Positions 2,218-22,208 of a stretch of DNA of 36,611 nucleotides are shown piece after piece. Every line of letters starts with the position of its first letter. Within the stretch, counting starts at the first letter, position 1. The notes under the pieces were generated by a model. That model did no database searches. It saw only the letters and a list, made by a program, of their open reading frames with translations, and was not told the DNA's origin. A program made the position numbers and the translations under genes. Source of the stretch: an uncultured Gammaproteobacteria bacterium (lineage in GTDB: Bacteria > Pseudomonadota > Gammaproteobacteria > DRLM01). The stretch lies in the NCBI GenBank assembly GCA_947259075.1, contig CAMYKQ010000022.1, positions 1-36,611 of the forward strand, read 5' to 3'.

Positions 2218-2232
2218 CCTAGCCTCCCGTCC

Positions 2233-4336: not shown

Positions 4337-5019
4337 AAACCTATCCACGCTTGATCCATGCTCAAGGTGTAGACCACCACGGTGGCCGAGGACACGGGGT
4401 ATTTTTCGGTGCGCACATCGACTTGATCCCACAGCACCCGCCATGGCAAGGCTTCGAGATTGATTAAAAACGTCACGATATCGCGGTAACCGCCCGACAC
4501 CTCGATACGTAAACCGTGTTTATACAACGGCACGACGGGTTCAGGCGGCGGCATATCGCCTTCGGCGTTGTTCTCCTGAATTACATGCGGCGGCAGGTTC
4601 TCCACTTTCACTACCCGCAGCTGGTGATTTTGCGATAGCAGACTTTGCACCAGCTGGGTCATCTCCTTCGGGCTCACCAAACCGTTCATCAATTCCGCGA
4701 GCGGCGCGTCCACTTCGCGCAATTGCTGGGTTAATTCCCGCAGGCGCGCTTGATTGCCGGCATCGGGGTCTTGAGTCAATTGCATGGCCAAATTGGAAGT
4801 TTGCGTTTGCAGTGACGCGAGCTCGCTTTGTTTGCCGTCCAGTTCGGCGCTGAGTTGCGCGCGTTGTTTGTGCAGCGGCGAAAAGACCGCGAAGATGCTG
4901 ATGACGAACACGATCGCCAAGGCCGTAGCGAACAACATCACGCGCTCGCGCAGACTGCGTCCGTCCACCCATTGCATCAAGACTTGCGTGCGTCCGGCGA
5001 GGGCGGCGGGGAATTTCAT
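4333..5019 (-). CDS. mshJ: MshJ, PilO-like inner-membrane alignment protein
   Basis: This 228-aa bitopic inner-membrane protein has a single transmembrane helix at about residues 27-46. A periplasmic coiled-coil region (about 50-115, with many Gln, Leu and Glu) comes next, then a ferredoxin-like C-terminal domain typical of PilO/GspM-type proteins. It is expected to pair with the PilN-like product of the gene just upstream and to help connect the motor platform to the secretin. It overlaps the preceding gene (ATGA at 5016-5019) and mshK (ATGA at 4333-4336). Assignment rests on topology, length and exact position in the I-I1-J-K-L series more than on a catalytic motif. Confidence 0.85.
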   Translation of the reverse strand: MKFPAALAGRTQVLMQWVDGRSLRERVMLFATALAIVFVISIFAVFSPLHKQRAQLSAELDGKQSELASLQTQTSNLAMQLTQDPDAGNQARLRELTQQLREVDAPLAELMNGLVSPKEMTQLVQSLLSQNHQLRVVKVENLPPHVIQENNAEGDMPPPEPVVPLYKHGLRIEVSGGYRDIVTFLINLEALPWRVLWDQVDVRTEKYPVSSATVVVYTLSMDQAWIGL

Positions 5020-5636
5020 GAACCCTCCGGAAAGGCGGTGGCGACTAGGAACGCCATGGGGCCTTGCGCCGGTTTGTTATCTTCCGTCAGCGGGCGATGG
5101 AGTTGGAAGCTGCGAAACTCTTGGCCTTGCAGCAGGGTTTCATGCGAGAGATTTTGCAAATATTGCGGCACCAGATCGGGGGTCAGCGTCGCGCCGCGCA
5201 AGGTGAAGTCATTGCCCGCGCCGGTGATGGAGACGCTGGTCAACCACATGCCGCGCACATGCTGGCGCGCGAGGGCGACCAGATAACGGGAGTAACCTTC
5301 GCCGCGTTGAAACAGATCGCCCTGCAACAGCGCGCGCAATTGCTGGCGGTGGTTGATGACTTGTTCGAGTTTGTTTACCTGTTCGAGCAAGGCCGGGTCC
5401 GGCTGGGCCGCGGCGAGTTGCGCGGCGAGCGCCGCCAATTGCTGCTGAGAGTCCGCCACTTGAAGCGCCACGGCGCGGCTGCGTTCTTGCAGGGTATACA
5501 GCTGCCAGCCGGCAAAACCCGCCAACGCCGCGGCGCCGGTCAGCACCGCGGCGATGCTCCATAACAGCGTCTTCGCCGCGAAGGGTTTCTTTTCGCGGCG
5601 CAGCGGGGCTTGATACAGATTGATCTGCTGTTTCAT
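5016..5636 (-). CDS. mshI1: PilN-like MSHA biogenesis protein (MshI1 type)
   Basis: This 206-aa protein opens with MKQQINLYQAPLRREKK. The QQINLY segment is the conserved cytoplasmic PilN motif, which in type IVa pilus systems docks onto the PilM-like ATPase-fold protein. One transmembrane helix follows at about residues 24-46, then a coiled coil rich in Gln and Ala (about 50-100) and a small periplasmic domain. It is thus the partner of MshI (upstream) and MshJ (downstream), overlapping each by 4 bp. Naming varies between genomes (mshI1, mshI2 or pilN-like), so the symbol is tentative while the PilN-family call is firm. Confidence 0.85.
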   Translation of the reverse strand: MKQQINLYQAPLRREKKPFAAKTLLWSIAAVLTGAAALAGFAGWQLYTLQERSRAVALQVADSQQQLAALAAQLAAAQPDPALLEQVNKLEQVINHRQQLRALLQGDLFQRGEGYSRYLVALARQHVRGMWLTSVSITGAGNDFTLRGATLTPDLVPQYLQNLSHETLLQGQEFRSFQLHRPLTEDNKPAQGPMAFLVATAFPEGS

Positions 5637-6577
5637 GCCGCGATGCCTTCGTCACGCAAGGCCGCGGCCAGCGGTAAAAAGAAACGCGATTGCCAGTCCG
5701 CGGGCAAACCGCCTTGGTGATCGATGTAGTCACCCAGATCGAGCAAGGAGACCTCGACGCCGAGATTCGCGCGCAGGTAGTCGATCACCGGCGCGGCCTC
5801 TATCGCCAAGGGCGCCAGTATCAAATGCCGCAGCGGCGCTTGGCGGAAATGGCTCTCGTAATAATCGAGCGAACGTTGTATCTCAAGGACGATTTGCCCC
5901 AAGGCGTTGTCACGCGTCACTTCGCTGCTGAGTTGAGTCTGCCCCACCGACAGGGTGCGGCTGAGATAGAGTTCGCCTTGGCGGGTCAGGGTGATTAAAC
6001 CGTGATCCTGCCGCAGCGAGAGCAGGGCCACGCCTTGCGCGTCCTGCGGCAACAGGGCCGCGATATTGCGCTGGGCCAGCTCGGCGATGTCGATGACGGC
6101 CAGTTTCGCGCCGGTGTTCAGCAGCAAATCCACCCGCTGCTTGAGCACCGCGTTGCGCGCCGCCACGACGTAGACCGAACGTTTATTGCTATTGGCGCCG
6201 ACACGCGGCGCCTCGAAGACGTCCAAGGTGACGTCGCTGACCGGGCCGTCGACCAGGTCTTTGATGCGCCAGCGTAGCGCCGCGGTGAGTTCGGCCGCGG
6301 GCACGTCCGGCGCTTCCGCCACCAAGAGCTTGTAATCACCGCCCTCCAGCACGGTGGTGCAGGGCGTCTGTTGTAAATGGTGGCGTTGCGTCAATTCGCG
6401 CATCAAGTCGGCGGGGCTGCCGCCGTCGGCGAAGGCGCGGAAATCACAGGCGAGCAGCTTGGGCCGCAGCCGCCCGCTGTGCTGCAATTGCACCAGGGCG
6501 ATACCGTCGCTGTCCACGCCGATGGCGCTGATGCCCGGCGAGGCTTTCTTGCCCAGTAATTTGGCGAACAGACCCAT
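5633..6577 (-). CDS. mshI: MshI, PilM-like actin-fold protein
   Basis: This protein of about 314 aa has the PilM/MshI pattern. The opening MGLFAKLLGKK is followed by an actin-like fold starting with the strand IGVDSDGIALVQL. It should sit on the cytoplasmic face and bind the PilN-type N-terminal motif of the next gene product. I chose the ATG at 6577 because it gives the family N-terminus. Purine-rich SD-like stretches (AAGGAG) lie 13 and 1 bases upstream. The open frame extends 22 codons further (MPGKRV...), but that part looks non-coding. The 164-bp gap upstream is the largest within the second half of the msh cluster, so an internal promoter for mshI-N is possible. Confidence 0.85.
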   Translation of the reverse strand: MGLFAKLLGKKASPGISAIGVDSDGIALVQLQHSGRLRPKLLACDFRAFADGGSPADLMRELTQRHHLQQTPCTTVLEGGDYKLLVAEAPDVPAAELTAALRWRIKDLVDGPVSDVTLDVFEAPRVGANSNKRSVYVVAARNAVLKQRVDLLLNTGAKLAVIDIAELAQRNIAALLPQDAQGVALLSLRQDHGLITLTRQGELYLSRTLSVGQTQLSSEVTRDNALGQIVLEIQRSLDYYESHFRQAPLRHLILAPLAIEAAPVIDYLRANLGVEVSLLDLGDYIDHQGGLPADWQSRFFLPLAAALRDEGIAA

Positions 6578-6722
6578 ACTCCTTTGCAATCTCCTTGTGT
6601 CCCTTATGCCACCCAGCCGGCCGCGTACGCGCTTTCCCGGCATGACACCGCAAGACCCCGCTCGCTTGCGATGAGTCTAAGACACTGACTTTATCGGCGG
6701 GACGCGGGCGAACCTTAGCAAA

Positions 6723-6741: not shown

Positions 6742-7728
6742 TCACGGGATGACATCCTGCCAGTTGCTGACGCTGATACCGCCGCCGCCGGGCCCCGATA
6801 GATTGACCTCGTCGAACAATACGGCGTAGGCCTCATTTTTTTTGACCTTATTATCGTTCTTGACGTCAAAGGCGAGGCGGATGCGGTTGATGCTTTTGCC
6901 GGCGGGTACGGTCCAGTTGAGGCTGGTATTGGTCCAATTGATCTTTTGGATTTGGCAATCGGACCAGAGGCGGTAGACGGTGTTGTCGCTAGCCACGAGA
7001 TCTATCGCCATCATCATATTGTCGGTCTTGCCCTTGTCGCGGATTTTCCTATACCAAAAATCCAACAGCAGGTTGTCGCCCGCTGCGAAAGGCGCGGGCA
7101 GGCCGTGTTCGCGGTAGCCGCTCAAGCGGCCGTTGGCCACGGTGGCGTCCACCTCGGCGCGGAAGGCGCCACCCGTGGAACCCGGCGCGTTTTCCGTGGG
7201 GTCGTATGTCACCCAGCCGGTGCTGGCCGGCGCGGTGATGTTATCCACCGTTGGCGGGCAGGCGCGGTTGAAGGTGTCGCCGGCGGGTCCCGCCGTGGGC
7301 CAGGCGCTGATGTCGTTGAAGGGCTCGCTGACACCGGCGGCGCTGATTTCCGCGATCACCTCCGTCACCCGCACGGCGTTGCCGCCTTGGGTGGCGACGC
7401 GGCCGCTGCTGCTGATGCGCCGCTGGTTGGCGGGCAGGGGATTGCCCGAGGCGTCGTTGGTGCTCACGCTAATCGTGAAGTCGCCGTCGGCGAACACCAC
7501 CGGGCCTTCGCCCGTGTAGGTGCTTGGGCTCAGCGACCATTGGCGCATGCCGCGCTCCAAGCCCGATTCGGCGATGAACAGCGCCTTGCTGGCGTGGGCC
7601 TGATTGACATTGCTGCTCACCTGGCTGGTGGCGAGAAAGGCCACGGCGCTGCCTAAAAACCCCATGACCACGATCATCACCACCGCGACGATGAGCAGCG
7701 AACCGCGCTGCGCGCCGGGCGATTTCAT
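6742..7728 (-). CDS. mshP: MshP/PilX-like minor pilin with large C-terminal domain
   Basis: The first ~65 residues look like a PilX/MshP-type prepilin: a short basic leader ending QRG, then a long hydrophobic helix and the segment ASKALFIAESGLERG. The residue five after the cleavage Gly is not Glu, as in GspK and PilX-like minor pilins. The protein is 328 aa, much longer than a simple MshP. Residues ~135-312 form a separate beta-rich domain (for example NLLLDFWYRK, RIRLAFDVK, FDEVNLSG) resembling a jelly-roll carbohydrate-binding fold, with two cysteines at about 157 and 258. It might be a tip adhesin, but that is inference. It is last in the mshA-C-D-O-P run and overlaps mshO by 4 bp. Confidence 0.7.
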   Translation of the reverse strand: MKSPGAQRGSLLIVAVVMIVVMGFLGSAVAFLATSQVSSNVNQAHASKALFIAESGLERGMRQWSLSPSTYTGEGPVVFADGDFTISVSTNDASGNPLPANQRRISSSGRVATQGGNAVRVTEVIAEISAAGVSEPFNDISAWPTAGPAGDTFNRACPPTVDNITAPASTGWVTYDPTENAPGSTGGAFRAEVDATVANGRLSGYREHGLPAPFAAGDNLLLDFWYRKIRDKGKTDNMMMAIDLVASDNTVYRLWSDCQIQKINWTNTSLNWTVPAGKSINRIRLAFDVKNDNKVKKNEAYAVLFDEVNLSGPGGGGISVSNWQDVIP

Positions 7729-8234
7729 GAAAAGCTCCTCGGCTTAATGAGCGTGCGCGAAGTCAAATTGGCGCCGCCGCGCGTCACGGTGAAACTGGCC
7801 GCGATGTAATAGACCTGGGTCGCGTCGGCGGCGAGGGTTTTGCCGTCGCGGCGCAGATAAGTGAAGGACAGCGCGCTGATGCCGTCGGCCAAGGGCTGGC
7901 CGTTGCGCAGCAGCACATTGCCGGACAGGCTGTAATTGATGCTGCTGCCCGCGGTGTTGACCAGGGTGATTTGGCTGGCGGGGATCATCACCAAATCCGC
8001 CGCCGTGGCTGAGCGCACGGCGCGCAGATCGCGATTGAGCCGTTGCAGGGCGAGGTGTCCCTGCCAGTCGGCGTCGCTGACGTCGCGCTGGCGGAAATAG
8101 GCGTCGAAGCCGCCGCTGAGGATGGTGCTGCTCACCCCCGCGATCAGCGCGAGAATAATGATGACCAGCACCAATTCGAGCAAGGTGAAACCGCGGCTGC
8201 GGCGGACTGCATGAATGCCGGGTGCCGGCGCCAT
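7725..8234 (-). CDS. mshO: MshO-like minor prepilin
   Basis: This 169-aa protein carries a class III/type IV prepilin signal: a basic leader, then RG|FTLLELVLVIIILALIAG with Glu at +5 after the cleavage Gly. The remaining domain is short and beta-rich, without an obvious disulfide pair. It lies fourth in the pilin block after mshA, C and D, the usual place of MshO, though MshO proteins I know of are longer. It starts 1 bp after mshD and overlaps the mshP-like gene (ATGA). MshO is a minor pilin, probably part of the priming or tip complex. The prepilin call is firm and the specific letter is inferred from gene order. Confidence 0.72.
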   Translation of the reverse strand: MAPAPGIHAVRRSRGFTLLELVLVIIILALIAGVSSTILSGGFDAYFRQRDVSDADWQGHLALQRLNRDLRAVRSATAADLVMIPASQITLVNTAGSSINYSLSGNVLLRNGQPLADGISALSFTYLRRDGKTLAADATQVYYIAASFTVTRGGANLTSRTLIKPRSFS

Positions 8235-8235
8235 A

Positions 8236-8664
8236 TCAGTAATTCGCCACCAGCGCGGTGAGTTGCGCCCCGCCCTTGCCGCTCACGGTCACGGTGATGA
8301 CTTTGTAATTTCCATCGCCGTTCCACGCCGTGCCCAGGGTGCCGGTGACGGTGAAACCGGCGGGGATGGCGCTGCACACCGGCTGGGTCGACGGCGGCGC
8401 GGAGGTGCAAGGGTCGAAACTGGCCGCGGTGAAACCGGCGAAACCCAGGGCGCGTTTTTGCGCGAGGATCAGTTCCATGCGCTCCGCCGCCAATTGCGCC
8501 GAGCGCACCGTGCGCTCCAACTCGCGGGCGCTTTGCAGCGCGCCGGTGAAGCTGGCGAATATGGCTACGCCCAGCACGCCCATCACCACGATGAAGATCA
8601 GCAGCTCAATGAGCGTGAAGCCGCGCGTGCGCGGGTGAGCAGGGAATAAGCGGCCGTGTTTCAT
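8236..8664 (-). CDS. mshD: MshD-like minor prepilin
   Basis: The product is 142 aa with the prepilin motif TRG|FTLIELLIFIVVMGVLG, including Glu at +5, so it should be cleaved by a PilD-type prepilin peptidase encoded elsewhere. The helix continues into a segment with Arg/Glu (SARELERTVRSAQLAAERMELIL). The C-terminal part has two Cys (SFDPC and QPVCSAI) that could form a loop. By position after mshC it corresponds to MshD. It overlaps mshC by 4 bp (ATGA) and is separated from mshO by 1 bp, so the four minor pilin genes are probably translated as a unit. Confidence 0.72.
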   Translation of the reverse strand: MKHGRLFPAHPRTRGFTLIELLIFIVVMGVLGVAIFASFTGALQSARELERTVRSAQLAAERMELILAQKRALGFAGFTAASFDPCTSAPPSTQPVCSAIPAGFTVTGTLGTAWNGDGNYKVITVTVSGKGGAQLTALVANY

Positions 8665-9134
8665 GGCGCGATCACCCGGCCGGTTTGCGGGCTGATGCGT
8701 ACCGTGCGGTTCTCGCCTTCGGCGCTGAGGGTGATGACCGCGTCGGCGGCCAGGGCCGTGCCCGGCAAGGCGCTGTCCACATAGGGCGCGCCGTTACCGC
8801 TGAAGACCAAAAAGGCATGGGTGCCAGTTAAAGTGATGCCGCTGGCTAGAGACACGTTGTTGGCGGCGGTGGCCGGATGCGGCACCGGCACCGTGCCCGC
8901 GGCATTGCTGAATGAGTAACCCGCCGCGCTGAAGTTGATGCGGTAACGCTGGCCGCGGGTCATGGAGAGGGATTGAATGTAACGGATGTCGCTCACCAGT
9001 TGATCGGCCTGCGCCGCGAGATTGACCGAGAGGCCGCGCCATTGAGTGACGAACATCAGCGAGAGGATGGAGACGACTACTAACACCGTCACCAGTTCTA
9101 CGAGGGTGAAGCCTTTGTGATGGCCGCGGGACAT
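8661..9134 (-). CDS. mshC: MshC-like minor prepilin
   Basis: This 157-aa prepilin has a very short leader (MSRGHHKG) followed by FTLVELVTVLVVVSILSLM, with Glu at +5. The globular part contains a GspH/FimT-like pattern (DIRYIQSLSMTRGQRYRINFS), common in MshC and related pseudopilins. It is the first gene after the major pilin mshA, and a GC-rich hairpin separates the two, so it is probably expressed at a lower level than mshA. It overlaps mshD by 4 bp. In pilus systems of this kind MshC-type proteins are low-abundance subunits. Confidence 0.75.
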   Translation of the reverse strand: MSRGHHKGFTLVELVTVLVVVSILSLMFVTQWRGLSVNLAAQADQLVSDIRYIQSLSMTRGQRYRINFSAAGYSFSNAAGTVPVPHPATAANNVSLASGITLTGTHAFLVFSGNGAPYVDSALPGTALAADAVITLSAEGENRTVRISPQTGRVIAP

Positions 9135-9197: not shown

Positions 9198-9569
9198 TTA
9201 GAGAACTTCAATCGCCCGGAAGCTGGCGGTGGTGCTATTGGGGCCAGTCAAGGTGCAAGCGGCCGAGGTGCCGTCGATGCCCGAGGCCATCACGACGGAG
9301 CCAATAGAGTAGCCTGCTGGCAAGCCGCCATCCAGCAGAGCGCCGGCCGCCGTGCAGTTACCGATCGCCGTAGCGGCGCCGGAGGATTTTTTCTTGGCGA
9401 AATTCATCACGGAGGCAGAACCCAAGGCACCGGCCGTGGCTTCGGTGGCGGCGACTTGCGCATCGTCCGACAGATCGATGAATTGCGGCACGGCGACGGC
9501 GGCCAAGATGCCGAGGATCACGATCACGAGTACCAGTTCGATCAGGGTAAAGCCAGACTGCTTCTTCAT
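9198..9569 (-). CDS. mshA: MshA, major MSHA pilin
   Basis: This is the major type IV-like pilin, 123 aa before processing. The leader MKKQSG is cut before Phe, giving FTLIELVLVIVILGILAA with Glu+5, then VAVPQFIDLSDDAQVAA, which is the hallmark N-terminus of MshA. Two cysteines (GNC and SAAC) near the C-terminus probably form the D-region disulfide. It is compact compared with Vibrio MshA. I set the start at ATG 9569, preceded by AGGAG eight or nine bases away. A TTG six codons earlier is open but lacks support. A 254-bp AT-richer gap upstream probably holds its own promoter, and a hairpin follows the gene. Confidence 0.92.
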   Translation of the reverse strand: MKKQSGFTLIELVLVIVILGILAAVAVPQFIDLSDDAQVAATEATAGALGSASVMNFAKKKSSGAATAIGNCTAAGALLDGGLPAGYSIGSVVMASGIDGTSAACTLTGPNSTTASFRAIEVL

Positions 9570-9823
9570 TTTGAAATCTCCTAACAAGGTGTCAATGTAA
9601 TTTATTTAGTGAAAGTGCCCGAAAATTTGCGTTTCGTTGCAGACTGATTGGAAATCCCTCTACTCGTACCGCTGTCCGTCCTGAACGCCGCTTACACAAC
9701 TCGCCGTCGCTGATGTGCGTGCCGCGGAACCCGGTCACACTTTGTGTCGGCACGGAAAATATTTTCTTTAGAAAAAACTGCTGGCTTATCAGCTTAAAAC
9801 TTGGGTAAATGCGGCGGGCCCGC
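9570..9823 (-). promoter_or_regulatory. mshG-mshA intergenic region, probable mshA promoter
   Basis: This 254-bp stretch has no gene. Near mshG, the minus strand has a weak stem GCTG-N6-CAGC (9780-9793) followed by AG and six T, a possible weak terminator for the mshE-mshG transcript. Next come a 12-bp AT-only-centred palindrome gaaaatattttc (9755-9766) and an 11-bp palindrome acactttgtgt (about 9737-9747), which could be protein-binding sites. AT-rich sequence (TAAATAAATTAC) lies close to mshA. I could not fix a convincing -35/-10 or -24/-12 pair by eye. Confidence 0.45.
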
Positions 9824-11050
9824 TTAGTGATGCAGGGCCGCGCTGGCCAAGCCCCACATGGGCATGAAGACGCCCAGGGCCAGAATCAGCACGATGACAC
9901 CTACCGCGCCCAGCAAGACCGGTTCGATGGCGGTGCTGAGGTGTTTAAGCTGGTATTCCACCTCCCGTTCGTAATATTCCGCTACCTCGTTTAATAAATG
10001 GTCGAGGGCGCCGGTCTGTTCGCCGACGCCGATCATTTGAATCACCAGCGGTGGAAACAGGCCGGTGGCGGCGGCGGTGCGGGTGATGCTCTCGCCGCGC
10101 TCCACGCCGTCGCGCATGGCGCGCACCTTTTCGGCGATGTAGACATTGTCCACGGCATTACCCACCACCATCATGCCTTGCCCCCAAGGCACGCCGGATT
10201 TGATACAGATGGACAGGGCGTGGGCGAAGCGGCCTAAAGTGGCGCGGTAGATGATGCCGCCGATGATGGGCATCTTGAGTTTGTAGCGGTGCCAGCGCAT
10301 GCGGCCTTCCGTGGTGCGGATGTGGCGTTTCGCGCCAAACACGCCGCTGACGGCGGCGAAGACCAGCAGGGGCCAGTATTTCAGGGTGAAGCTGGAGCTG
10401 GCGATGAGGATGCGGGTGGGCAGGGGCAGCTCGGCGTTGAACCGCGAGAATAATTGCGCGAAGGCCGGGATGACGAAAATATTGATGATGACCAGGGCGG
10501 CGGCGATGGCGCCGATGACGATGAGCGGATAACGCATCGCGGAGCGGATGCGGTTGCGGGTTTCGCGTTCTTGTTCCAGATAACTGACCAATTGCAAAAA
10601 ACTCTCGGCCAGGGTGCCGCTGGCCTCACCGATTTCGATGATGCTGACATAGAGCGAAGGGAAGACATCGGGGTGTTGTCTAATCGCGTTGCTCAAATCC
10701 TGCCCCGAATCCAGGCCGTCGCGGATGGCGCCGATCACCGTCGCCAGGCCGTCGCTGGGCGTGGATTCGCGCAAGCCCTGCAAGGCATCAAGGATGGGCA
10801 CGCCCGAGCGCAGCAAGGTGTACATCTGCCGCGAAAAGAAAATCAGGTCGAGAAGATTGATCTTGGGTTTAGATTTAAGACCGGACCAAACCAGACCGGC
10901 CTTTTTCTCCGCCGGCGCGGGGGCGATGTCGATGGGGGTGATGCCATTGCCGGATAAATAGACGGCCACGGCATTTTCATTGTCCGCGTCCAACACCCCG
11001 GTTTCGAGCTGGCCTTGGTGATTGCGTCCACGATAACGGTAGTGAGCCAT
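9824..11050 (-). CDS. mshG: MshG, PilC/GspF-like inner-membrane platform protein
   Basis: This 408-aa polytopic inner-membrane protein forms the platform on which the pilus is assembled. It opens with AHYRYRGRNHQGQLETGVLDA, the standard PilC/GspF N-terminus. Two GspF domains follow, each with DLIFFSRQMYTLLRSGVPILDAL-type helices, and hydrophobic segments near residues 170-190, 215-235 and 375-400. The family motif IGVGEQTGALDHLL is present in the second repeat. The gene begins 2 bp after mshE, so the two are almost certainly co-translated and their products work together. Length and motifs are normal for the family. Confidence 0.92.
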   Translation of the reverse strand: MAHYRYRGRNHQGQLETGVLDADNENAVAVYLSGNGITPIDIAPAPAEKKAGLVWSGLKSKPKINLLDLIFFSRQMYTLLRSGVPILDALQGLRESTPSDGLATVIGAIRDGLDSGQDLSNAIRQHPDVFPSLYVSIIEIGEASGTLAESFLQLVSYLEQERETRNRIRSAMRYPLIVIGAIAAALVIINIFVIPAFAQLFSRFNAELPLPTRILIASSSFTLKYWPLLVFAAVSGVFGAKRHIRTTEGRMRWHRYKLKMPIIGGIIYRATLGRFAHALSICIKSGVPWGQGMMVVGNAVDNVYIAEKVRAMRDGVERGESITRTAAATGLFPPLVIQMIGVGEQTGALDHLLNEVAEYYEREVEYQLKHLSTAIEPVLLGAVGVIVLILALGVFMPMWGLASAALHH

Positions 11051-11052
11051 GG

Positions 11053-12762
11053 CTAATCTTCGATGCTGAAGCTGACCCGCAGCACTTCATCCACGGTGGT
11101 CAAGCCTTGTCTGGCCAAGTCCAAGGCACTTTGTTTGAGGCTTTGGTAGCCGTTTTGCTGCACCGCGCGGCGGCTGAATTCGACGTATTTTCCTTGATGC
11201 AGCAGCTCCGCCAGCTCGGCGGTGATGGCGAGGTATTCGAAGATGCCCATGCGGCCTTGGTAGCCGGAATCATTGCAATAGGCGCAACCGCGGCCGCGTT
11301 TGAATGCTACCGGCTCGGCGCCCAGCGCCAGCTCGCCTTGCAAGACCACGCGCGTGGCGGGATCGACCTCATCGTCCTCGACGCAGTTGTCGCAGATGCG
11401 GCGGATCAAACGTTGCCCGAGGATGCCGCGCAAGGCCCCGGCAATGAGATAGGGTTCGGCGCCCATATCGATGAGGCGCAATACGCAGGACACCGCGTCG
11501 TTGGTGTGCAGGGTGGAGAGGACGAAGTGGCCAGTCATCGCGGCACGCAGGCCGATCTGCACGGTCTCCGCGTCGCGCATCTCGCCCACCAGCACCACGT
11601 CGGGATCGTGGCGCAACACGGCGCGCAGCACGCGGGCGAAGGTCAGTTCCACTTTGGTATTCACCTGCACCTGATTCACGCCGGGCAGGCGGTATTCCAC
11701 CGGATCCTCTACGGTGATGATTTTCACCGAGGGTTCGTTGAGTTCCTTGAGCACGCTGTAAAGCGTGGTGGTTTTACCGCTGCCGGTGGGGCCGGTAACT
11801 AGAAAGATGCCATGCGGACTGCGCAGCACTTGTGCCATGCGTTTGCCGATGGCGGCGGGCAGATCCAGTTGCGCGATGGACAAAATGCCCGCTGAATGGT
11901 TGAGCAGACGCAGCACCGCCGCCTCGCCGGTTTCCAGTGGCATGGTGGAGACGCGCACGTCCACGTCCTTGTCGCGGATATTCATGTGAAAGCGGCCGTC
12001 TTGCGGCAGGCGCCGTTCGGAGATGTCGAGATGGGCCATGAGTTTCAGCCGCGACAGCAGGGCGGCGCTGATGCGCCGCTCAGCGGTGGTTTGCAAATGC
12101 AACACGCCGTCGATGCGGAAACGGATGCGCAATTCGGTTTTGTCCGGCTCGATGTGGATGTCGGAGGCATTGACCTGCACCGCGTCCTCGAACATGGTTT
12201 GCAACAGCTTCACCACCGGCGCGTCGGCGACGTTTTCGTTGACGGTGCGGCCGAACAGCGGTTCGTCGTTGGCGGAGAGTTGCTGGTCGAGTTCCGCGGC
12301 GAGGCCGCTGATCTCCGTGGTGCGGCGGTACACCGTGTCGATGATGCGCAGCAGATCGGCCTCTTTGACCACCGCCAGCTTGATCGGCTTTTGGGTGATG
12401 CGCGCCACTTCATCGTAGGCGAAGATGTTGGTGGGGTCGGCCATGCCCACCAGCAGGCCTTCGGCGTCTTCCTCGAGGGCGATGACCCGGAAGCGGCGCG
12501 CCTGCACCTCGGGAATCACTTTGACGATATCTTGTTTGATTTCGTAGCGGCGCAGATCAATGAAATCGATGTTCAACTGCCGCGCGAGAAAATTCAGCAA
12601 TTGGTCTTCGCTGAGGATGCCGCTGTCGATGAGCACCCGCCCGAGCTTTTGCCCGGAACTCTTTTGGGTGTTGAGCGCCGTGCCGAGCTGTTCCGCGGAG
12701 ATCACGCCGTGCTCGACCAAGAGGTCGCCGAGGCGGATTTTTTTAGGTTTCACCAGCGCCAT
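11053..12762 (-). CDS. mshE: MshE, c-di-GMP-responsive pilus extension ATPase
   Basis: This is the hexameric PilB/GspE-type ATPase that powers pilus extension. The N-terminus holds two MshEN motifs: residues 10-33 (RLGDLLVEHG...LNTQ) and 39-62 (KLGRVLIDSG...LARQ), separated by five residues. Both fit RLGxxLLxxGLLxxxxLxxxLxxQ, the known c-di-GMP-binding pattern, with Lys for Arg in the second. The C-terminal ATPase has Walker A GPTGSGKTT (about 324-332), the Walker B region LVGEMRDAET (about 391-400), and a CxxC pair (CDNC, CAYC) that probably binds zinc. The SD AAGGACGG supports the ATG at 12762. It heads the pilus cluster, followed 2 bp on by mshG and preceded by a GGDEF-EAL gene. Confidence 0.93.
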   Translation of the reverse strand: MALVKPKKIRLGDLLVEHGVISAEQLGTALNTQKSSGQKLGRVLIDSGILSEDQLLNFLARQLNIDFIDLRRYEIKQDIVKVIPEVQARRFRVIALEEDAEGLLVGMADPTNIFAYDEVARITQKPIKLAVVKEADLLRIIDTVYRRTTEISGLAAELDQQLSANDEPLFGRTVNENVADAPVVKLLQTMFEDAVQVNASDIHIEPDKTELRIRFRIDGVLHLQTTAERRISAALLSRLKLMAHLDISERRLPQDGRFHMNIRDKDVDVRVSTMPLETGEAAVLRLLNHSAGILSIAQLDLPAAIGKRMAQVLRSPHGIFLVTGPTGSGKTTTLYSVLKELNEPSVKIITVEDPVEYRLPGVNQVQVNTKVELTFARVLRAVLRHDPDVVLVGEMRDAETVQIGLRAAMTGHFVLSTLHTNDAVSCVLRLIDMGAEPYLIAGALRGILGQRLIRRICDNCVEDDEVDPATRVVLQGELALGAEPVAFKRGRGCAYCNDSGYQGRMGIFEYLAITAELAELLHQGKYVEFSRRAVQQNGYQSLKQSALDLARQGLTTVDEVLRVSFSIED

Positions 12763-12891
12763 TCGCCGTCCTTAAAAGTCGCGCATTCGCAAGAGAGACG
12801 GGCGCCGGGGCGTTTTTTCCTATGCCGGCGGTGATTGCCCACCCGAGAGCTTTAGCGGCTGATCGCGCTTGATCTTTATCGGACGCGGTGT

Positions 12892-15750
12892 TTAGTTCAA
12901 GGGAAAGGCCGAGGCCAGCAAGGTGTTTAAACCTGGACCGGAGACGGGGGGGCTGAAGAGGAAGCCTTGGCCGATGTGGCAGCCCTGGCCTTGGAGAAAG
13001 CGCAATTGCTCGGGGGTTTCGATGCCTTCGGCCACCACGTTCAGCTCCAAGGCCCGCGCCATGGCGATGACGGCGGAGATGATGGCCTCGTCATCCTTGT
13101 CGTGGGTGGCGTCGCGCACGAAGGAACGGTCGATTTTCAAGGTGTCGACCGGAAAGCGTTTGAGATAGCCGAGGGAGGAGTAACCGGTACCGAAATCATC
13201 GATGGCGAGACGGACCCCCATGGCTTGCAAGGCGTTGAGGGTGTGTTCGGTGACGGGGTCATTTTGCATCAACACGCTTTCGGTCACCTCCAGTTCCAGC
13301 AGGTGGGAGGGAAGGCCGTGTTCCGCCAGGATGGTCCGCAAATTCGCCACCAGGGTAGGCTGCATGAATTGCCGGCCGGAGATATTGACCGATAACCGCA
13401 GCGGCGCGCCGCCGTGCTCACGCCAGCACACGGCGTGTTCACAGGCCTTGCGCAAGGCCCACTCGCCCACCGCCAAGATCAGGCCGGTGTCTTCGAGGGC
13501 GGGGATGAAGTCCATGGGGTTGATGAGCCCGCGTTGCGGGTGCTGCCAGCGCAGCAAGGCCTCGGCGCCGATGATACGGCCGCTGATTAAATCGACCTGC
13601 GGTTGAAAGTAAAGAGCAAACTCATTACGTTCCACCGCGTGGCGCAGATTGGTTTCCAGGTCCAGCCGCTTAAAGGCGGTGGCGCTCAAATCGGCGGAAT
13701 AAAATTGAAAGCAGTGGCGGCCCTGTTCCTTGGCGCGGTACATGGCGGTGTCGGCGTGGCGCAAAAGAATGTGTGGATCACCGCCATCGTCCGGCGCGAG
13801 GGCGATACCGATACAGAGGGTGATGTAAAGTTCGTGTTCATCGATACGCAGGGCCTGGGACAGCGCGTTGAGTATGGCATTGGCCTGTTGCGGCACGCTG
13901 TTGCCGGCGGGGAGGTTTTCCAGCAGCAGCGCGAATTCATCGCCGCTCAAGCGGGCCAAGGTATCGCCGGGCTTGGTCTGCTTGACCAGCAGTTCCGCCA
14001 GCGCCTTCAGTACTTGATCACCGAACTCGTGCCCCAGGGTGTCGTTGACGATTTTGAAGCAGTCGATGTCGAGGCAGAGTACCGCCAGCTGTTTTCCCGA
14101 ATCCTGGTTTAAGGCCAGCGCGTGTTCGAGGCGCTCGGTGAAAAGCTGGCGGTTGGGCAAGCCGGTGAGCGCGTCGTGATAGGCGAGATAATGCAGACGT
14201 TCTTGGGTCTGCATGCGTTCGGTGATGTCCTTGCCGGTGGAAATGTAGTGGCTGATCTCGCCGCCGGCGCCCTTCAACGGCGTGATGGTCTTCTCTTCGT
14301 AATACAACTCACCGGTTTTTTTGCGGTTGATGAGGATGTCGCGGAAGGGCTGACCCGCGAGCAGGGTTGACCACAACGCGCGGTAAAACGCCCTACCGTG
14401 TTTGCCGGATTTAACGATATTGGGTTTATGCGCCAAGGCTTCGGCGGCCTCGAAGCCGGTCATGGCGGTGAAGGCGGGATTGATGTATTCGATCACGCCA
14501 TCGCGGTCGGTGATCATCACCGCGTCCGCGGTCTGCTCCAGGGCGAGGGAGAGCTTGCGATTTTTTTCATTGTCGCGCTGATGGATCAATTCCGCGGCGA
14601 TGCGCGTAGCGAAGATTTGCAGTATGGCCTCGGCCGGTTGCAGTTCGGGCAGCGCCTTGCGGTGGCTGATGGCCACCAGGCCGAGCGGCCGGCCGGCGGT
14701 GTCGGTGAAGGGCACGCCCAGAAAACTCTCCAGCTCGAATTGCGTGGCCAGCGAGCATTCGGGAAAGTGCCGGCGCAGGGCGCGGGGATAGTAATTCGGC
14801 CGGGCCTGAAGCACTTCATTGCAGGGCGTGCCCGTCAGCGAATAGCGATGATGGCTGACGATGTTGCCGCGATCGCACAGCGTCACGATCTCGGCCGTCG
14901 TCGGTTCGGCGGTTTGCACGCTGATGAAAGCCACGTCCACCCGCAGTACGCGGGCGAGCGCTTCGACCAACGAACGATAGAATTGCTCGCCGGTGCTGGC
15001 GGAGACCGCCGCCGCGACGTCGCGCAGCGCCACCTCCAAACGCTGGCGCTCTTTCACTTCCTTGCGCAATTTTTTATTGCCTTGGCGCAGCTCGCGGGTT
15101 TGCGCGGCGAGTTTGGCTTGCAAGGAGGCTTGGGTCTCGCGCAGATCCTCGCCCGCCGCTTGTCCCTGGAATCGATGGTGACAGGCATCGATCAAGCTTG
15201 CGGTGGTGTCCAGCAGCGGGGCGAGATACTCGATCAAGGCCTGATCGTAAGCCCCGGCGCGGTTGGCCAGGCCCACCATGCCTATCAGTCGCCCGCCGCA
15301 CTTCAAGGGCAGACCCAGAAAATTATCCATTGGCGGATGACCCGGCGGCGTGCCGCCGCTGCGCGGGTCCTTGGCCGGATCGTCGGCGATCACCGCCTCG
15401 CCGCCGGTGATCACCGCGCCGAACAGCGTATCGAGATTGTGAAATTCCAGACCCTGTTGCGCGTAGCGCCGATACAACTCGCGCGTCTCCTCATTCCAGG
15501 TGATGTCGCTGATGGCGCGGGTCTTGAGAAACGGCGCGCCGTCCTCTTCGCGCAGGATTTCGCCGATGAAGCCGAAGGCGCTGTCGCTGAGCGCCAAGAA
15601 TTCGATGAGCAATTCATTGAAGAGCGCGAGCGGATCGTTCGCGGAGATGAAATGTCGTTGCGCGCGAAGGATGCACTCCAGCAGGCGATGCTGAGCGGCG
15701 GCCGGCGTTGTCTGATTTTCCTGTGGCGAGCGTTGACCACGGTCTATCAT
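12892..15750 (-). CDS. GAF-GAF-PAS-GGDEF-EAL c-di-GMP signalling protein
   Basis: This is a 952-aa soluble-looking sensor with no clear membrane helix. Domain order: GAF (about 20-195), a coiled coil, GAF (about 240-395), PAS (about 400-515, with ADAVMITDRDGVIEYINPAF), GGDEF (about 525-690) and EAL (about 695-945). The GGDEF signature is SGDEF (602-606), and the inhibitory I-site is KPGD rather than RxxD, so synthase activity may be weak or unregulated. The EAL side looks complete: EAL (730-732), DDFGTGYSS (851-859), KIDRSF (872-877) and EGIET (908-912). I therefore infer a mainly c-di-GMP phosphodiesterase role. It lies 129 bp upstream of mshE in the same orientation, so it is well placed to control MshE by hydrolysing its ligand. 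Confidence 0.9.
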   Translation of the reverse strand: MIDRGQRSPQENQTTPAAAQHRLLECILRAQRHFISANDPLALFNELLIEFLALSDSAFGFIGEILREEDGAPFLKTRAISDITWNEETRELYRRYAQQGLEFHNLDTLFGAVITGGEAVIADDPAKDPRSGGTPPGHPPMDNFLGLPLKCGGRLIGMVGLANRAGAYDQALIEYLAPLLDTTASLIDACHHRFQGQAAGEDLRETQASLQAKLAAQTRELRQGNKKLRKEVKERQRLEVALRDVAAAVSASTGEQFYRSLVEALARVLRVDVAFISVQTAEPTTAEIVTLCDRGNIVSHHRYSLTGTPCNEVLQARPNYYPRALRRHFPECSLATQFELESFLGVPFTDTAGRPLGLVAISHRKALPELQPAEAILQIFATRIAAELIHQRDNEKNRKLSLALEQTADAVMITDRDGVIEYINPAFTAMTGFEAAEALAHKPNIVKSGKHGRAFYRALWSTLLAGQPFRDILINRKKTGELYYEEKTITPLKGAGGEISHYISTGKDITERMQTQERLHYLAYHDALTGLPNRQLFTERLEHALALNQDSGKQLAVLCLDIDCFKIVNDTLGHEFGDQVLKALAELLVKQTKPGDTLARLSGDEFALLLENLPAGNSVPQQANAILNALSQALRIDEHELYITLCIGIALAPDDGGDPHILLRHADTAMYRAKEQGRHCFQFYSADLSATAFKRLDLETNLRHAVERNEFALYFQPQVDLISGRIIGAEALLRWQHPQRGLINPMDFIPALEDTGLILAVGEWALRKACEHAVCWREHGGAPLRLSVNISGRQFMQPTLVANLRTILAEHGLPSHLLELEVTESVLMQNDPVTEHTLNALQAMGVRLAIDDFGTGYSSLGYLKRFPVDTLKIDRSFVRDATHDKDDEAIISAVIAMARALELNVVAEGIETPEQLRFLQGQGCHIGQGFLFSPPVSGPGLNTLLASAFPLN

Positions 15751-15914: not shown

Positions 15915-17894
15915 TCACGGATGAAAGGCGCGCACCTCGCGGCGTAAACGCGGTAAACAGGTGTGATCGCCACGCGCGCCGTAGCGCAGCGCGATGTACA
16001 GCGCGCTGATGGTGCGCACTTGATGCGCCAGTTCGGGGCGGACGCGGCTTACGCGCCGCGCATAATCTTCAGGGCCTTCGTGCGCGGCGCGCGCCAGGCC
16101 GCGGCGCGCGAGTTTGCGGCAAAAGCGCTGATATAAACGCGTCACTGGATCATTGCCGCGGCGCTCCGCGTTAAGCAGGCGCAAGACTAGCAGGCAGAGA
16201 ATGACGCCGATGACCGTCAGCAAGCCGATCGCCACGCTCTGCCAGGTGAGGCCGCCGAGGCTGAGCCATGACAGCAAGTCCGATTGACGCCCGGCATCGA
16301 AACCCAGCACCCATTCATTCCAGCGGGTATTGACCGCGTCCCAGCCGTGACGCATGCCGCGCCATAGCGTGTTGAGCAAGGGATTGCGCTGCAGTTCGAA
16401 GCGTACGGCCATGCCCTCTTCTTGCGGACTGAGATCGATGCCGCGTTCGACGCGTTCGGGCGCGACCGCGGCGGTGGGATCCACCCGCTGCCAGCCGCTG
16501 CCGTCCAGCCACACTTCGGCCCAGGCGTGGGCATCGCGCTGACGCACGATGAAATAATTGCCGAGTTCATTGAGCTCGCCGCCCTGATAACCGGTGACCA
16601 CCCGCGTGGGAATGCCCGCGGCGCGCATCAAAAAAGCGAAGCTGCCGGCGTAGTGTTCGCAAAAACCCTTGCGGGTATCGAAGAGAAAACCATCGACGAA
16701 GTTATCGCCGATCAGCGGCGGCGAGAGGGTGTAGATGAAATTTTCAGTGCGGTACAGCCGCAAGGCGGTTTGTACGATCTCCGCGGGCGAGGCCGCGCGC
16801 CGGCGCCATTCCGTGGCCAGACCGCGCGCGCGCGGATTGCCGCCGATCGGCAGTTGTAGATAACGCTGGCGTTCCGTTTCGCTCAAGGCGCCGGTTTTGT
16901 AGTCGGGATAGGAGCGCATTTCATAGCGCAGGCGTTCTCGCACCGGTTGGCGCGACAGCAACTGGAATTCGTCGTTGATATCGCTGAACGGCGGCACTTC
17001 GGCGGGCAGGTCGAGAGCGAACAGCCATAGCTTGTTGTGCGGCTCGATCATCACCGCATATCGCAACGGTTCGCCGAGGGCTTGATAGTTCACCACCTGC
17101 GTTTGCAGGGCGCCGCCGCGCCGCGGCGCGGCGCGCCAGCTCTCGCCATCGGTTTGCGAGAATACCGGGCCGCGCCAGTAGCGCTGCTGCGCTTCGGGCG
17201 GCGCGCCCTCGAAGTTGGCGCGGAAGGCGATCGCGTCCGATTGGCCCAGCTGGCTGATTTGCCCCGGTGACATTTCATCGCTCAACCCCGTCATGCCGCT
17301 GTAGGCGTCGTTGGGCAGGCCCCACAGCGGGCCGCTGATGCGCGGAAACAAGACGAACAACACCAGCATCAACGGCAGGGCGCGCGCCAGCATGGCGCCG
17401 GCGAGACGCAGATTAATCAGCGGCGCGGCGCTCTGGCGGCGATTGAGATCGATGAGCACGGCCGTGAGCACGGCCACCATGCCTAGCATATACACCGCCA
17501 TGAACATGGATTGGCTGAAGAGGAAATGGATGATGACCAGGAAATAACCGAGGAAGACGACCACGTAGATATCGCGGGTCTCGCGGATTTCCAGCAGCTT
17601 CAAACCCAGCATGGCGATGAGCAGCGCGGTGCCGGAATCCCGTCCCAGCAGGGTGCCGTAATCAGCGAATATCACCGTGAGCGTGACGAGAGTGAGCAGG
17701 ATGCGCAGCCAGGCGGGCGGCATGCGCCGCTGTTGCCGCGCCGCGATAAAACGCCAGGCGCCAAGACTGAAAACCAGGATGCTGAGCCACGGCGGCAGAT
17801 GCGGGGTGTGGGGCAGCACCACTAAGGCCAGCACCGCGAGCAGGTAATAAAGCGTTTCCCCGCGCAGCGGTGGATGCAATGTCCCGCGCCGCAT
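15915..17894 (-). CDS. TgpA-type transglutaminase-like membrane protein
   Basis: The product is 659 aa. About five or six transmembrane helices occupy the first ~190 residues. A periplasmic region follows, containing a transglutaminase core, then a further helix (about 550-575) and a short cytoplasmic tail. The catalytic triad is visible: Cys412 (GFCEHYAGSF), His456 (DAHAWAE) and Asp472 (WQRVDPTAA). This is the DUF3488/TgpA architecture; in Pseudomonas aeruginosa TgpA is reported as essential, with an unknown substrate. I chose the ATG at 17894, which shares one base with the upstream DUF58 stop (TGATG). The longer frame runs back inside that gene. It is the last gene of the MoxR-DUF58-TgpA operon. 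Confidence 0.88.
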   Translation of the reverse strand: MRRGTLHPPLRGETLYYLLAVLALVVLPHTPHLPPWLSILVFSLGAWRFIAARQQRRMPPAWLRILLTLVTLTVIFADYGTLLGRDSGTALLIAMLGLKLLEIRETRDIYVVVFLGYFLVIIHFLFSQSMFMAVYMLGMVAVLTAVLIDLNRRQSAAPLINLRLAGAMLARALPLMLVLFVLFPRISGPLWGLPNDAYSGMTGLSDEMSPGQISQLGQSDAIAFRANFEGAPPEAQQRYWRGPVFSQTDGESWRAAPRRGGALQTQVVNYQALGEPLRYAVMIEPHNKLWLFALDLPAEVPPFSDINDEFQLLSRQPVRERLRYEMRSYPDYKTGALSETERQRYLQLPIGGNPRARGLATEWRRRAASPAEIVQTALRLYRTENFIYTLSPPLIGDNFVDGFLFDTRKGFCEHYAGSFAFLMRAAGIPTRVVTGYQGGELNELGNYFIVRQRDAHAWAEVWLDGSGWQRVDPTAAVAPERVERGIDLSPQEEGMAVRFELQRNPLLNTLWRGMRHGWDAVNTRWNEWVLGFDAGRQSDLLSWLSLGGLTWQSVAIGLLTVIGVILCLLVLRLLNAERRGNDPVTRLYQRFCRKLARRGLARAAHEGPEDYARRVSRVRPELAHQVRTISALYIALRYGARGDHTCLPRLRREVRAFHP

Positions 17895-18877
17895 CACCGG
17901 CGCGGCTCCTCGTAGAGGGCCAGGGCTTCCAAACAACGTTGCTGCTGGCCTTCGCCTTGCCCGGGTGCTAGCACCGTGCCCGGCAGGCGCAGGCCGTAGC
18001 GCCGGCCGTCGCGCGCCGCCTCCAGCACCCAGCGGCACAGCTGGCGCAGGCGCGCCTCACCGTCGAGTTGCGGCAGGGCGTCCCAGTCCAGCCACAATTC
18101 GGGCGACTCGCTGGCGGCGAATTGTTTGGTGAGCAGCGGCAGGGCGCGCGCCAGCGCCTTCCAATGCACGTGGCGGATGGAGTCACCGGCTTGATAGGGA
18201 CGAAAGCCGAGAAAGTCGTCGGTGCCCGGTTGATGGCCGCTGTTGTCGCCGTGATCTTGGCGGCGGTCGCGCGGCAAGGTTTGGAAATGGCCGGGCCGCG
18301 GATAGATCAAGCCGTGCATGTCGACGTCGGCGTAGGACCAGGCGCGCACCAGCCCCAAGGGAAAAACGGTGGAGACGGTGATGCGGCCCAGCGCCAGACG
18401 TCCGCGTTTGAGCGCGGGCACTTTCACTTCGACTTGCGCCGTGCTTTGCGCGGGGATGTCGCACAACACCGCTTCGCCGTTTTTGGGGGCGAGCACGAGG
18501 GCGGTGCGCGGCAGATGGTCGCCGTTGTGCAGCTGCACGATGAAACGCGCCGTGCCGCCGGCGAAGGCGGGCAGCACGCGGCCGCGGCCGAGGGTGAGCC
18601 GGGCGATGTTGCGGTAGGTGTACAAAATGGAAAGCATGCCTAAGCTCGCCAGCAGAAAGGTCAGGGCGAAGCCGAGGCTGTTGTTGTAATTGATGGAGCC
18701 CAGCAGCATCACGAACAGCATGAAGCCGAACAGCAAACCGTAGCGCGTGGGCAAGGCGTAGATGCGGCGGCGGTCGAGGGTGACGCGCTCGCCGCGCGGT
18801 ACCTTGTGGGGAAAGAGCTTGTCGAGACGCAAGCCCGTCCACAGTTGTTGGCCGGCGGTGGCGAGGGCCTGTTTCAT
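17894..18877 (-). CDS. DUF58 family protein (MoxR operon)
   Basis: This 327-aa protein has two adjacent transmembrane helices near residues 45-85, then a beta domain and the DUF58 motif GTDDFLGFRPYQAGDSIRHVHWKALAR (quoted in parts: DFLGFRPYQAGD, HVHWKALAR) at about residues 215-245. DUF58 proteins resemble von Willebrand A-type domains, often lack a full metal site, and are nearly always encoded with MoxR ATPases. Here the gene begins 5 bp after moxR and overlaps the transglutaminase gene by 1 base. The likely task is to couple the ATPase to a membrane or periplasmic target. No enzymatic residue can be assigned. Confidence 0.87.
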   Translation of the reverse strand: MKQALATAGQQLWTGLRLDKLFPHKVPRGERVTLDRRRIYALPTRYGLLFGFMLFVMLLGSINYNNSLGFALTFLLASLGMLSILYTYRNIARLTLGRGRVLPAFAGGTARFIVQLHNGDHLPRTALVLAPKNGEAVLCDIPAQSTAQVEVKVPALKRGRLALGRITVSTVFPLGLVRAWSYADVDMHGLIYPRPGHFQTLPRDRRQDHGDNSGHQPGTDDFLGFRPYQAGDSIRHVHWKALARALPLLTKQFAASESPELWLDWDALPQLDGEARLRQLCRWVLEAARDGRRYGLRLPGTVLAPGQGEGQQQRCLEALALYEEPRR

Positions 18878-18882
18878 GGCGC

Positions 18883-19863
18883 TCAGGGAATGGGCACGGC
18901 GGCCAGGGTCTGGAATAACTCGGCGGACGATTGTTCGCTGTACTCGGGCGCGGCTTGCAGGCGATGACGCACTACGGCGGGTAACACCGCCTGCACGTCT
19001 TCGGGCATGACATAGGCGCGGCCCGCCAGCACCGCCCAGGCCTGCGCGGCGCGCACCAGCCCCAGTCCGGCGCGGGGCGAGAGGCCGTCGCGATACTGCG
19101 GCGCTTGGCGGCTGGTTTGCAGGATGGCTTGCACATAATCGAGCAGGGCCTCGCTCACGCGCACTTGGCCTACGCTGGCTTGCAGGGCGATGAGCGCCGC
19201 CGGGTCCAGCGCGGGCTGCATGGCATTGATAAGTTCGCGCCGCTCTTGGCCTTGTAGCAGGGCGCGTTCGGCGCGCGCGTCCGGGTAACCCAGCTCCAAG
19301 CGCATCAAAAAGCGGTCGAGTTGCGACTCGGGCAGGGCGAAGGTGCCGACTTGATGGCTGGGGTTTTGCGTCGCGACCACGAAGAAGGGCTCGGGCAAGG
19401 CGTAAGTGTGTCCCTCCACCGTCACTTGATATTCCTCCATCGCTTCCAACAGCGCGCTTTGCGTCTTCGGCGTGGCGCGGTTGACCTCGTCGGCGAGCAC
19501 GAGCTGGGCGAAGATGGGGCCGGGGTGAAAGGTGAAACCGCCTTGATCGCGATCGTAGACCGTGGCGCCGGCGATGTCGGCCGGCAGCAGGTCGCTGGTG
19601 AATTGAATGCGGCGGAACTGCAAGCCCAGAGCGCGCGCCAGCACATGCGTCAAGGTGGTCTTACCCACGCCGGGCACATCTTCGATGAGCAGATGGCCTT
19701 TGGCGATGAGGCAGGCCAGGGCCAGGCGCAGCTCGCGCTCCTTGCCCAAGATGATGGCGCTGGCGGCGGCGATCACCCGCTCGAGCGCGGCCTTACGTCC
19801 GGCGGCGGAGGCGGCCTCGGCATCAAGATGGCGGGGCGAGGGGTTGGGAACCGGTGATGTCAT
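18883..19863 (-). CDS. MoxR-family AAA+ ATPase
   Basis: This 326-aa AAA+ ATPase has Walker A VPGVGKTT (63-70), Walker B LVLADE (121-126, followed by the MoxR-typical VNRATPKTQSALLEAMEE) and a sensor segment VVATQNPS. MoxR proteins are chaperone-like ATPases that help mature or activate partner proteins. The downstream DUF58 and transglutaminase genes make this the common MoxR-DUF58-TgpA arrangement. The ATG at 19863 has no strong SD, so a downstream start cannot be excluded, although the first ~25 residues are typically variable. It is divergent from mnmG across a 166-bp gap. Confidence 0.9.
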   Translation of the reverse strand: MTSPVPNPSPRHLDAEAASAAGRKAALERVIAAASAIILGKERELRLALACLIAKGHLLIEDVPGVGKTTLTHVLARALGLQFRRIQFTSDLLPADIAGATVYDRDQGGFTFHPGPIFAQLVLADEVNRATPKTQSALLEAMEEYQVTVEGHTYALPEPFFVVATQNPSHQVGTFALPESQLDRFLMRLELGYPDARAERALLQGQERRELINAMQPALDPAALIALQASVGQVRVSEALLDYVQAILQTSRQAPQYRDGLSPRAGLGLVRAAQAWAVLAGRAYVMPEDVQAVLPAVVRHRLQAAPEYSEQSSAELFQTLAAVPIP

Positions 19864-19944
19864 AGTATTTCAATCGTTTTGGTTAAAGCGCCCACAGGGC
19901 CGGTAGCGGCGCGCACAGTCCAAACTTTATTCCCTTCCCCGTCC

Positions 19945-22045: not shown

Positions 22046-22087
22046 GCCGCTGATGGGCGAATCGTTTTAGGTTCGCCCATCAGCGGC
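22046..22087. repeat. Perfect 16-bp stem-loop after mnmG
   Basis: GCCGCTGATGGGCGAA (22046-22061) and its exact complement TTCGCCCATCAGCGGC (22072-22087) enclose a 10-base loop TCGTTTTAGG. Neither side is followed by a T-run, so it is not a standard intrinsic terminator. It lies 124 bp after the mnmG stop, in a 286-bp gap before the HDOD-GGDEF genes. It could be a transcript-stabilising stem, a mobile palindrome or a protein-binding site. Confidence 0.8.
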
Positions 22088-22208
22088 CGATAGCAATACG
22101 GCATCAACTTCCCGTTTCCAACAATAACGAGTGTCGCGGCGTACCGGCCGGAGTGTTTCCTGGTACGGACCGGCGCGATCTCACTGCTTACGGTTGCTGA
22201 TAAATCTA

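Follow-up and report, generated by a model that had tools for sequence, protein, structure and literature searches.

A gene for a GGDEF-EAL sensor protein lies directly upstream of mshE, the gene for the extension ATPase of an MSHA pilus, in the gammaproteobacterial DNA studied here. A first-pass annotation read this pair as a local switch, in which a cytoplasmic sensor lowers c-di-GMP next to its receptor and stops pilus extension. We asked if the locus supports such a dedicated circuit or if its organization is better explained in another way.

Locus organization

The window, by which we mean the entire 36,611-nucleotide stretch that was analysed, is contig C22 of a gammaproteobacterial genome of 3.1 Mb in 65 contigs (G000). 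It was compared with two congeners (G001 and G002), a member of another genus in the same family (G003), and a further relative (G004) used in comparisons with G001 and G003. The domain content, motif integrity, promoter-like sites and synteny reported below are direct observations on these genomes. The minus strand carries, in the order of transcription, moxR, a DUF58 gene, tgpA, the sensor gene, mshE, mshG, an mshA-like pilin gene and three minor pilin genes, followed by genes for a PilX_N protein, PilM-, PilN- and PilO-like proteins, a small protein, a secretin, an ExeA-like ATPase and a TPR protein. The plus strand carries mnmG, rsmG, parAB and atp genes, a set typical of the vicinity of a replication origin, together with two HDOD-GGDEF genes. 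The features are as follows.

18883..19863, minus strand: MoxR ATPase (Pfam)
17894..18877, minus strand: DUF58 protein (Pfam)
15915..18038, minus strand: TgpA transglutaminase-type protein, adjoining the sensor on its upstream side (Pfam; order shared with G001 and G003)
12892..15750, minus strand: sensor, GAF-GAF-PAS-GGDEF(SGDEF)-EAL, 952 aa, soluble, predicted c-di-GMP phosphodiesterase (Pfam, catalytic columns)
11053..12762, minus strand: mshE, MSHA pilus extension ATPase, 569 aa, two MshEN motifs (T2SSE, NF053729)
9824..11050, minus strand: mshG, inner-membrane platform protein (T2SSF, 195 bits)
9198..9569, minus strand: mshA-like major pilin (sequence, MKKQSGFTLIELVLVIVILGILAAVAVPQF)
8661..9134, minus strand: minor pilin, GspH type (profile match)
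8236..8664, minus strand: minor pilin, N_methyl (profile match)
7725..8234, minus strand: minor pilin, N_methyl (profile match)
6742..7728, minus strand: PilX_N protein (profile match)
131..6643, minus strand: PilM-like, PilN-like, PilO/GspM-like, small protein, secretin (mshL), ExeA-like ATPase (mshM), TPR protein (mshN) (profile matches)
22131..23741, plus strand: HDOD-GGDEF protein a, canonical GGDEF with RxxD (profile match, sequence)
23851..25473, plus strand: HDOD-GGDEF protein b, GGEEM (profile match, sequence)

The tandem HDOD-GGDEF genes (22131-25473) sit between mnmG and rsmG, and a tandem pair of this kind occupies the equivalent position in G001, G003 and G004. Across G000, GGDEF is matched 38 times and EAL 24 times, which would make any c-di-GMP pool at this locus a shared one.

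MshE has the features of a c-di-GMP-responsive motor

In MSHA export, MshE requires c-di-GMP. V. cholerae MshE binds c-di-GMP, which promotes extension (PMC5013675, PMC7096442), and low c-di-GMP favours MSHA retraction (PMC7096442). The MshE encoded in the window matches the Pfam T2SSE family at 436 bits, and the motor is accompanied downstream by mshG, mshA and mshI-N homologs. Two complete MshEN motifs with a five-residue spacer had been reported for this protein, and both were confirmed, at residues 10-33 (RLGDLLVEHGVISAEQLGTALNTQ) and 39-62 (KLGRVLIDSGILSEDQLLNFLARQ); NF053729, the NCBIfam model for the MshE-related c-di-GMP motif, has a cut-off of 38 bits and scores 75 over residues 10-62. 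The protein also gives a clear match to the solved N-domain of V. cholerae MshE (5HTL), and its R10, Q33 and R89/R90 correspond, shifted by one, to R9, Q32 and R88/R89, the residues tested in V. cholerae MshE (PMC4624772).

The motif pair was general across a sample of 91 MshE proteins, made up of the window's own and those retrieved. The second motif starts with Lys rather than Arg in the window, as it does in 64 of 68 relatives, this count being taken on the proteins that fit a loose pattern. By its sequence the motif pair is a normal trait of the family, and family evidence supports the view that this MshE is of the c-di-GMP-responsive type.

The sensor is a predicted phosphodiesterase with an altered GGDEF domain

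The open reading frames upstream of mshE were as first annotated, with the sensor reading GAF, GAF, PAS, GGDEF, EAL and ending 129 nt before mshE. Its proposed cytoplasmic location also agrees with the sequence, as no membrane-helix-like stretch was found outside the EAL fold and the best 19-residue hydropathy window falls within EAL. EAL domains that carry E, N, E, DD, K, E and Q hydrolyse c-di-GMP. All of these positions (E730, N789, E821, D851/D852, K872, E908 and Q928) are present and invariant in four orthologs, which bears out the claim of a complete EAL site, and the sensor is predicted to be phosphodiesterase-competent. The sensor orthologs kept in the congeners G001 and G002 match at 74-76%.

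The GGDEF motif is altered to SGDEF and the I-site RxxD is replaced by KPGD, as the first-pass annotation had seen, and the first metal Asp is retained. The two congeners have SGDEY with GPGD, and in G001 the first metal Asp is changed to Gly, whereas the ortholog in G003 has a canonical GGDEF with RPGD, an RxxD motif. The cyclase domain looks to be eroding in the window's genus and seemingly intact in G003. We counted it in favour of a phosphodiesterase-type sensor that all four orthologs keep a complete EAL site even as the GGDEF half erodes within the genus. SGDEF alone is no proof of a dead cyclase: there is evidence of cyclase activity for the SGDEF enzymes MbaA (PMC8079147) and ECA3270, the latter according to the passage that cites it in PMC3974145, a paper that cautions against inferring activity from the SGDEF residue, and CdgB of Azospirillum combines SGDEF with PxxD (PMC9683572). 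The earlier statement that the sensor lowers c-di-GMP thus holds as far as the complete EAL site goes and is weakened by the ability of SGDEF enzymes to make c-di-GMP and by the GGDEF and RxxD motifs in G003.

It had also been suggested that the sensor was recruited in place of MshH, the GGDEF-EAL-type protein that heads the msh cluster in Vibrio and Shewanella. The remark on MshH itself was correct in that three Alteromonadales-type loci have a CsrD/MshH-type protein at a distance of 6.5-7.4 kb on the upstream side of mshE. MshH resembles CsrD and its sites are degenerate (PMC10333796). The window's sensor is like it as a GGDEF-EAL-type protein near msh genes and is unrelated in architecture, with a complete EAL site and a DibA-type score above that for CsrD (610 bits to the DibA model versus 131 bits to the CsrD model NF008281), whereas proteins at the MshH position score 466-618 bits to CsrD. 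We rejected the sensor as an MshH stand-in on these family scores and on its position, as it sits in the moxR block.

The sensor-mshE adjacency is restricted to part of one family

Both GAF domains were matched only in G000, G001 and G003 among 369 genomes sampled across the class; G002, which lies outside that sample, also has a sensor ortholog. Conservation of the pair across genomes, which the first-pass annotation had named as a check, was found in part: sensor and mshE adjoin in the window and in G003 (L040), with gaps of 129 and 143 nt, and these are only two of the four genomes with a sensor ortholog. In G001, the sensor lies downstream of moxR-DUF58-TgpA beside mnmG and is followed by a lone mshA-like pilin gene and then by unrelated Flavodoxin_2/UbiA and GSDH genes. 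The G002 contig starts at the sensor, and a lone mshA-like pilin gene is next. Wherever the upstream side is assembled (the window, G001 and G003), the constant neighbour of the sensor is tgpA and not mshE. The mshE gene of G001 is on a separate contig and has no adjoining GGDEF or EAL gene. In the loci retrieved from outside the family, the gene immediately before mshE is never of the GGDEF-EAL type and is most often mshN (55 loci), and a motif search found no HD-GYP gene adjoining mshE elsewhere. Broad conservation of the adjacency was rejected, since only the window and G003 show it among the loci retrieved. An EAL-domain fragment is present at a contig edge about 330 nt before mshE in the MAG FO_M_Gamma_043.1 (L011:1-641); it is divergently oriented and possibly an independent juxtaposition.

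The MshE of G001 branches outside the group formed by the window, G003 and loci L009-L013 (support 99/95, with the bootstrap not fully settled), a placement that misfits its congeners and suggests a non-orthologous msh cluster. The orphan pilins of G001 and G002 are 56-61% identical to MshA of the window and G003 versus 42% to MshA of the G001 cluster, which suggests that the linkage between sensor and msh genes is old. The simplest history would be an ancestral msh cluster at the sensor site, of which the G001/G002 line lost all but mshA. As a separate observation, the msh cluster of G001 (L119, contig C16) is of a second type, its MshE failing to group with that of its congener, which suggests transfer or an old duplication of msh clusters in the family.

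Sigma-28-type promoter-like sites precede the msh units

A FliA-like site was seen by eye in the mshG-mshA gap. A simple consensus score then picked out five sites in the window, each a short way before a gene, and a position weight matrix (PWM) was applied so as not to depend on a home-made consensus. The hypothesis arose from the window, which makes statistics taken on the window itself post hoc in part; the independent tests of the sigma-28 idea are the use of a matrix trained on E. coli and of loci outside the family. The PWM was derived from 15 E. coli FliA sites listed in PMC4183435, which themselves score 15.7-28.4, and the whole 36.6 kb window was scanned on both strands for sites of the form TAAAGTTT-N11-GCCGATAA-like. 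The five top scores, ranging from 22.4 to 15.1, all lie before genes in the correct orientation, and the next match scores 10.6. The sites are listed below.

6691..6717, minus strand: predicted FliA/sigma-28 promoter of the mshI operon (PWM 22.4, the window's best; 74 nt before mshI)
12852..12878, minus strand: predicted FliA/sigma-28 promoter of mshE, in the gap past the sensor gene (PWM 20.6; 116 nt before mshE)
19903..19929, minus strand: predicted FliA/sigma-28 promoter of the moxR-DUF58-TgpA unit (PWM 18.1; 66 nt before moxR)
22066..22093, plus strand: predicted FliA/sigma-28 promoter of the first HDOD-GGDEF gene, HDODa (PWM 16.0; 64 nt upstream)
9744..9770, minus strand: predicted FliA/sigma-28 promoter of mshA (PWM 15.1; 201 nt before mshA)

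Related genomes have sites before mshA (G001, G002 and G003), moxR (G001 and G003) and HDODa (G001). Orthologous upstream regions of G003 and G001 mostly repeat the sites, with p at most about 0.02 in most of them (100 simulations each), and no such signal was seen at the sensor and mnmG starts. By PWM, no FliA-type site was found at the sensor start in any of the four genomes; transcription from the predicted moxR-unit promoter may read through into the sensor gene. Similar sites precede mshE in L009-L013, loci that lack the sensor upstream, while the mshE site of G003 is weak (11.2) and the separate mshE of G001 lacks a noteworthy one (9.0). With the simple consensus score, equivalent sites were also seen in G001, in G003 and at the orphan-pilin loci.

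Outside the family, a PWM score of at least 15 was reached ahead of mshA in 15 of 67 cases, at distances of 90-189 nt from the start, versus 1 of 297 regions before comparison genes (mshN, mshG, mshJ/O, mshL and mshM), with each locus scored using its own base composition. When the window's composition was used, other loci gave 77 matches per 36.6 kb at a low threshold of 8.5, far above the window, a background that we take to reflect AT-richer DNA. A strict sigma-28 pattern showed no excess across G000 (14 matches versus 13 in the reversed control), and we therefore relied on the trained matrix and on position rather than on genome counts. A literature search limited to open-licence full text turned up no description of msh genes with FliA-type promoters.

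Scans of the sensor-mshE gap found neither a sigma-70 promoter nor an intrinsic minus-strand terminator. The lack of a terminator would allow partial co-transcription, and the promoter-like site in the gap weakens the case for sensor and mshE as one operon.

A general c-di-GMP-gated pilus is favoured over a private circuit

Of the proposed local switch, the MshE type and the predicted phosphodiesterase stood up, and the dedicated link between them was not supported. In such a circuit, the sensor's EAL domain would drain c-di-GMP beside MshE on a cytoplasmic signal and stop extension. The pair adjoins in two genera with both genes intact, the EAL site is conserved, the gap lacks a terminator, and some msh gene follows the sensor in all four genomes, an mshA-like pilin gene in G001 and G002. 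Against this, mshE has its own promoter-like site, two congeners keep the sensor without an adjoining mshE, the G001 mshE cluster is elsewhere with no GGDEF/EAL neighbour, the GAF-GAF form is confined to the family while mshE is widespread, and contact between the phosphodiesterase CdgJ and MshE was not detected in V. cholerae (PMC4624765). We consider a dedicated circuit unlikely; adjacency alone is shared synteny in part of one bacterial family and does not show a private circuit. Alternatively, the sensor could serve the moxR-DUF58-TgpA block or general c-di-GMP control, with its place beside mshE an inherited gene order without function. Whether or not mshE follows, the order moxR-DUF58-TgpA-sensor persists (window, G001 and G003). 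The many GGDEF and EAL matches in the genome make chance neighbours plausible: with 24 EAL matches in about 3,000 genes (our own estimate), the chance of a phosphodiesterase neighbour is about 1% per gene. However, msh genes seem to have been at the site ancestrally, as the pilin identities indicate. We regard this reading as a possibility short of probable.

A sensor that makes or degrades c-di-GMP according to its signal state could also promote extension. This would suit the canonical GGDEF and RPGD of the mshE-adjacent ortholog in G003 and the precedents of ECA3270, MbaA and CdgB, and it is at odds with the erosion of the domain in the window's genus, where SGDEF or SGDEY, loss of the I-site Arg and, in G001, the Asp-to-Gly change occur; we think it improbable. 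The explanation that we favour, and hold to be reasonably probable, is that the MSHA system is an ordinary one gated by c-di-GMP, with a phosphodiesterase-type sensor as its neighbour, inside a predicted sigma-28 regulon. c-di-GMP bound to the MshEN motifs of MshE would drive pilus extension, and retraction would prevail when c-di-GMP is low. For the cytoplasmic sensor we predict hydrolysis of c-di-GMP by the EAL domain, while the SGDEF domain may have weak cyclase activity or a regulatory role in sensing GTP; the sensor would influence MshE through the lowered c-di-GMP. Separate FliA/sigma-28-type promoters would start mshE, mshA and mshI, with the moxR unit and the HDOD-GGDEF gene sharing the promoter type, which would couple synthesis of the pilus to motility and leave c-di-GMP to gate its assembly. 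The enzyme activities, the sigma-factor use and the action of the sensor on MshE are what we infer from the observed features.

MSHA pili as candidate members of the flagellar regulon

The part of the locus that deserves specialist attention is the sigma-28 reading. We lean toward the view that the flagellar sigma-28 regulon includes MSHA pili in this lineage and in several other gammaproteobacterial groups, with FliA-type promoters driving mshE, mshA and mshI, the HDOD-GGDEF gene and the moxR unit. Swimming cells would then be pre-armed with an adhesive pilus, its assembly gated by c-di-GMP through MshE and phosphodiesterase sensors, and G000 may have kept the promoters after loss of its flagellum. 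If the promoter result holds, transcription would connect the flagellum directly with the MSHA attachment pilus and so complement the post-translational c-di-GMP link of Vibrio. The c-di-GMP pair adds little to this, as phosphodiesterase control of MSHA via MshE is already known.

FliA and FlhA are present in G001, G003 and G004. In G000, which is estimated to be 99.9% complete, no FliA was found above the cut-off and no FlhA was found. This tells against the sigma-28 reading, as do the genome-wide count of the strict pattern and the low mshE scores in G003 and G001. The assembly may lack the flagellar region, or the organism may have lost its flagellum recently, in which case the sigma-28 sites could be relics or be read otherwise. 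A lone flagellin gene persists in G000 (L176:2236-4005), preceded by a sigma-28-like site and lacking an ATG where its start would be expected, on a 13-kb contig in which no other flagellar genes were recognised.

Comparison with known systems

The V. cholerae phosphodiesterase CdgJ works through MSHA, with bulk c-di-GMP unchanged and MshE binding undetected (PMC4624765), a precedent indicating that a phosphodiesterase can matter for MSHA without adjacency. The two systems share an MshE with paired MshEN motifs, an EAL-type phosphodiesterase as a negative input and the msh gene set. They differ in that cdgJ has not been described as part of the msh cluster, while here a GAF-GAF-PAS sensor is directly upstream of mshE, and in that the window has an mshE-first gene order and FliA-type promoter-like sites before msh units. 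MbaA and CdgB likewise have SGDEF and an EAL-type domain in one protein, but their sensor domains (NspS-coupled periplasmic and MHYT, respectively) are unlike those of the window, and the passages of those reports that concern the two proteins describe no msh neighbour. The TAD pilus operon of Bdellovibrio (PMC5430801) is also a pilus operon under a flagellar sigma factor; that pilus is type IVb and its control has experimental proof, whereas the window encodes a type IVa MSHA pilus whose control is a prediction from sequence.

Lone mshA-like pilin genes with intact frames occur apart from msh machinery at L122:12235-12744, L124:3333-3710 and L134:3230-3613, beside the sensor in G001 and G002 and beside mnmG in G004.
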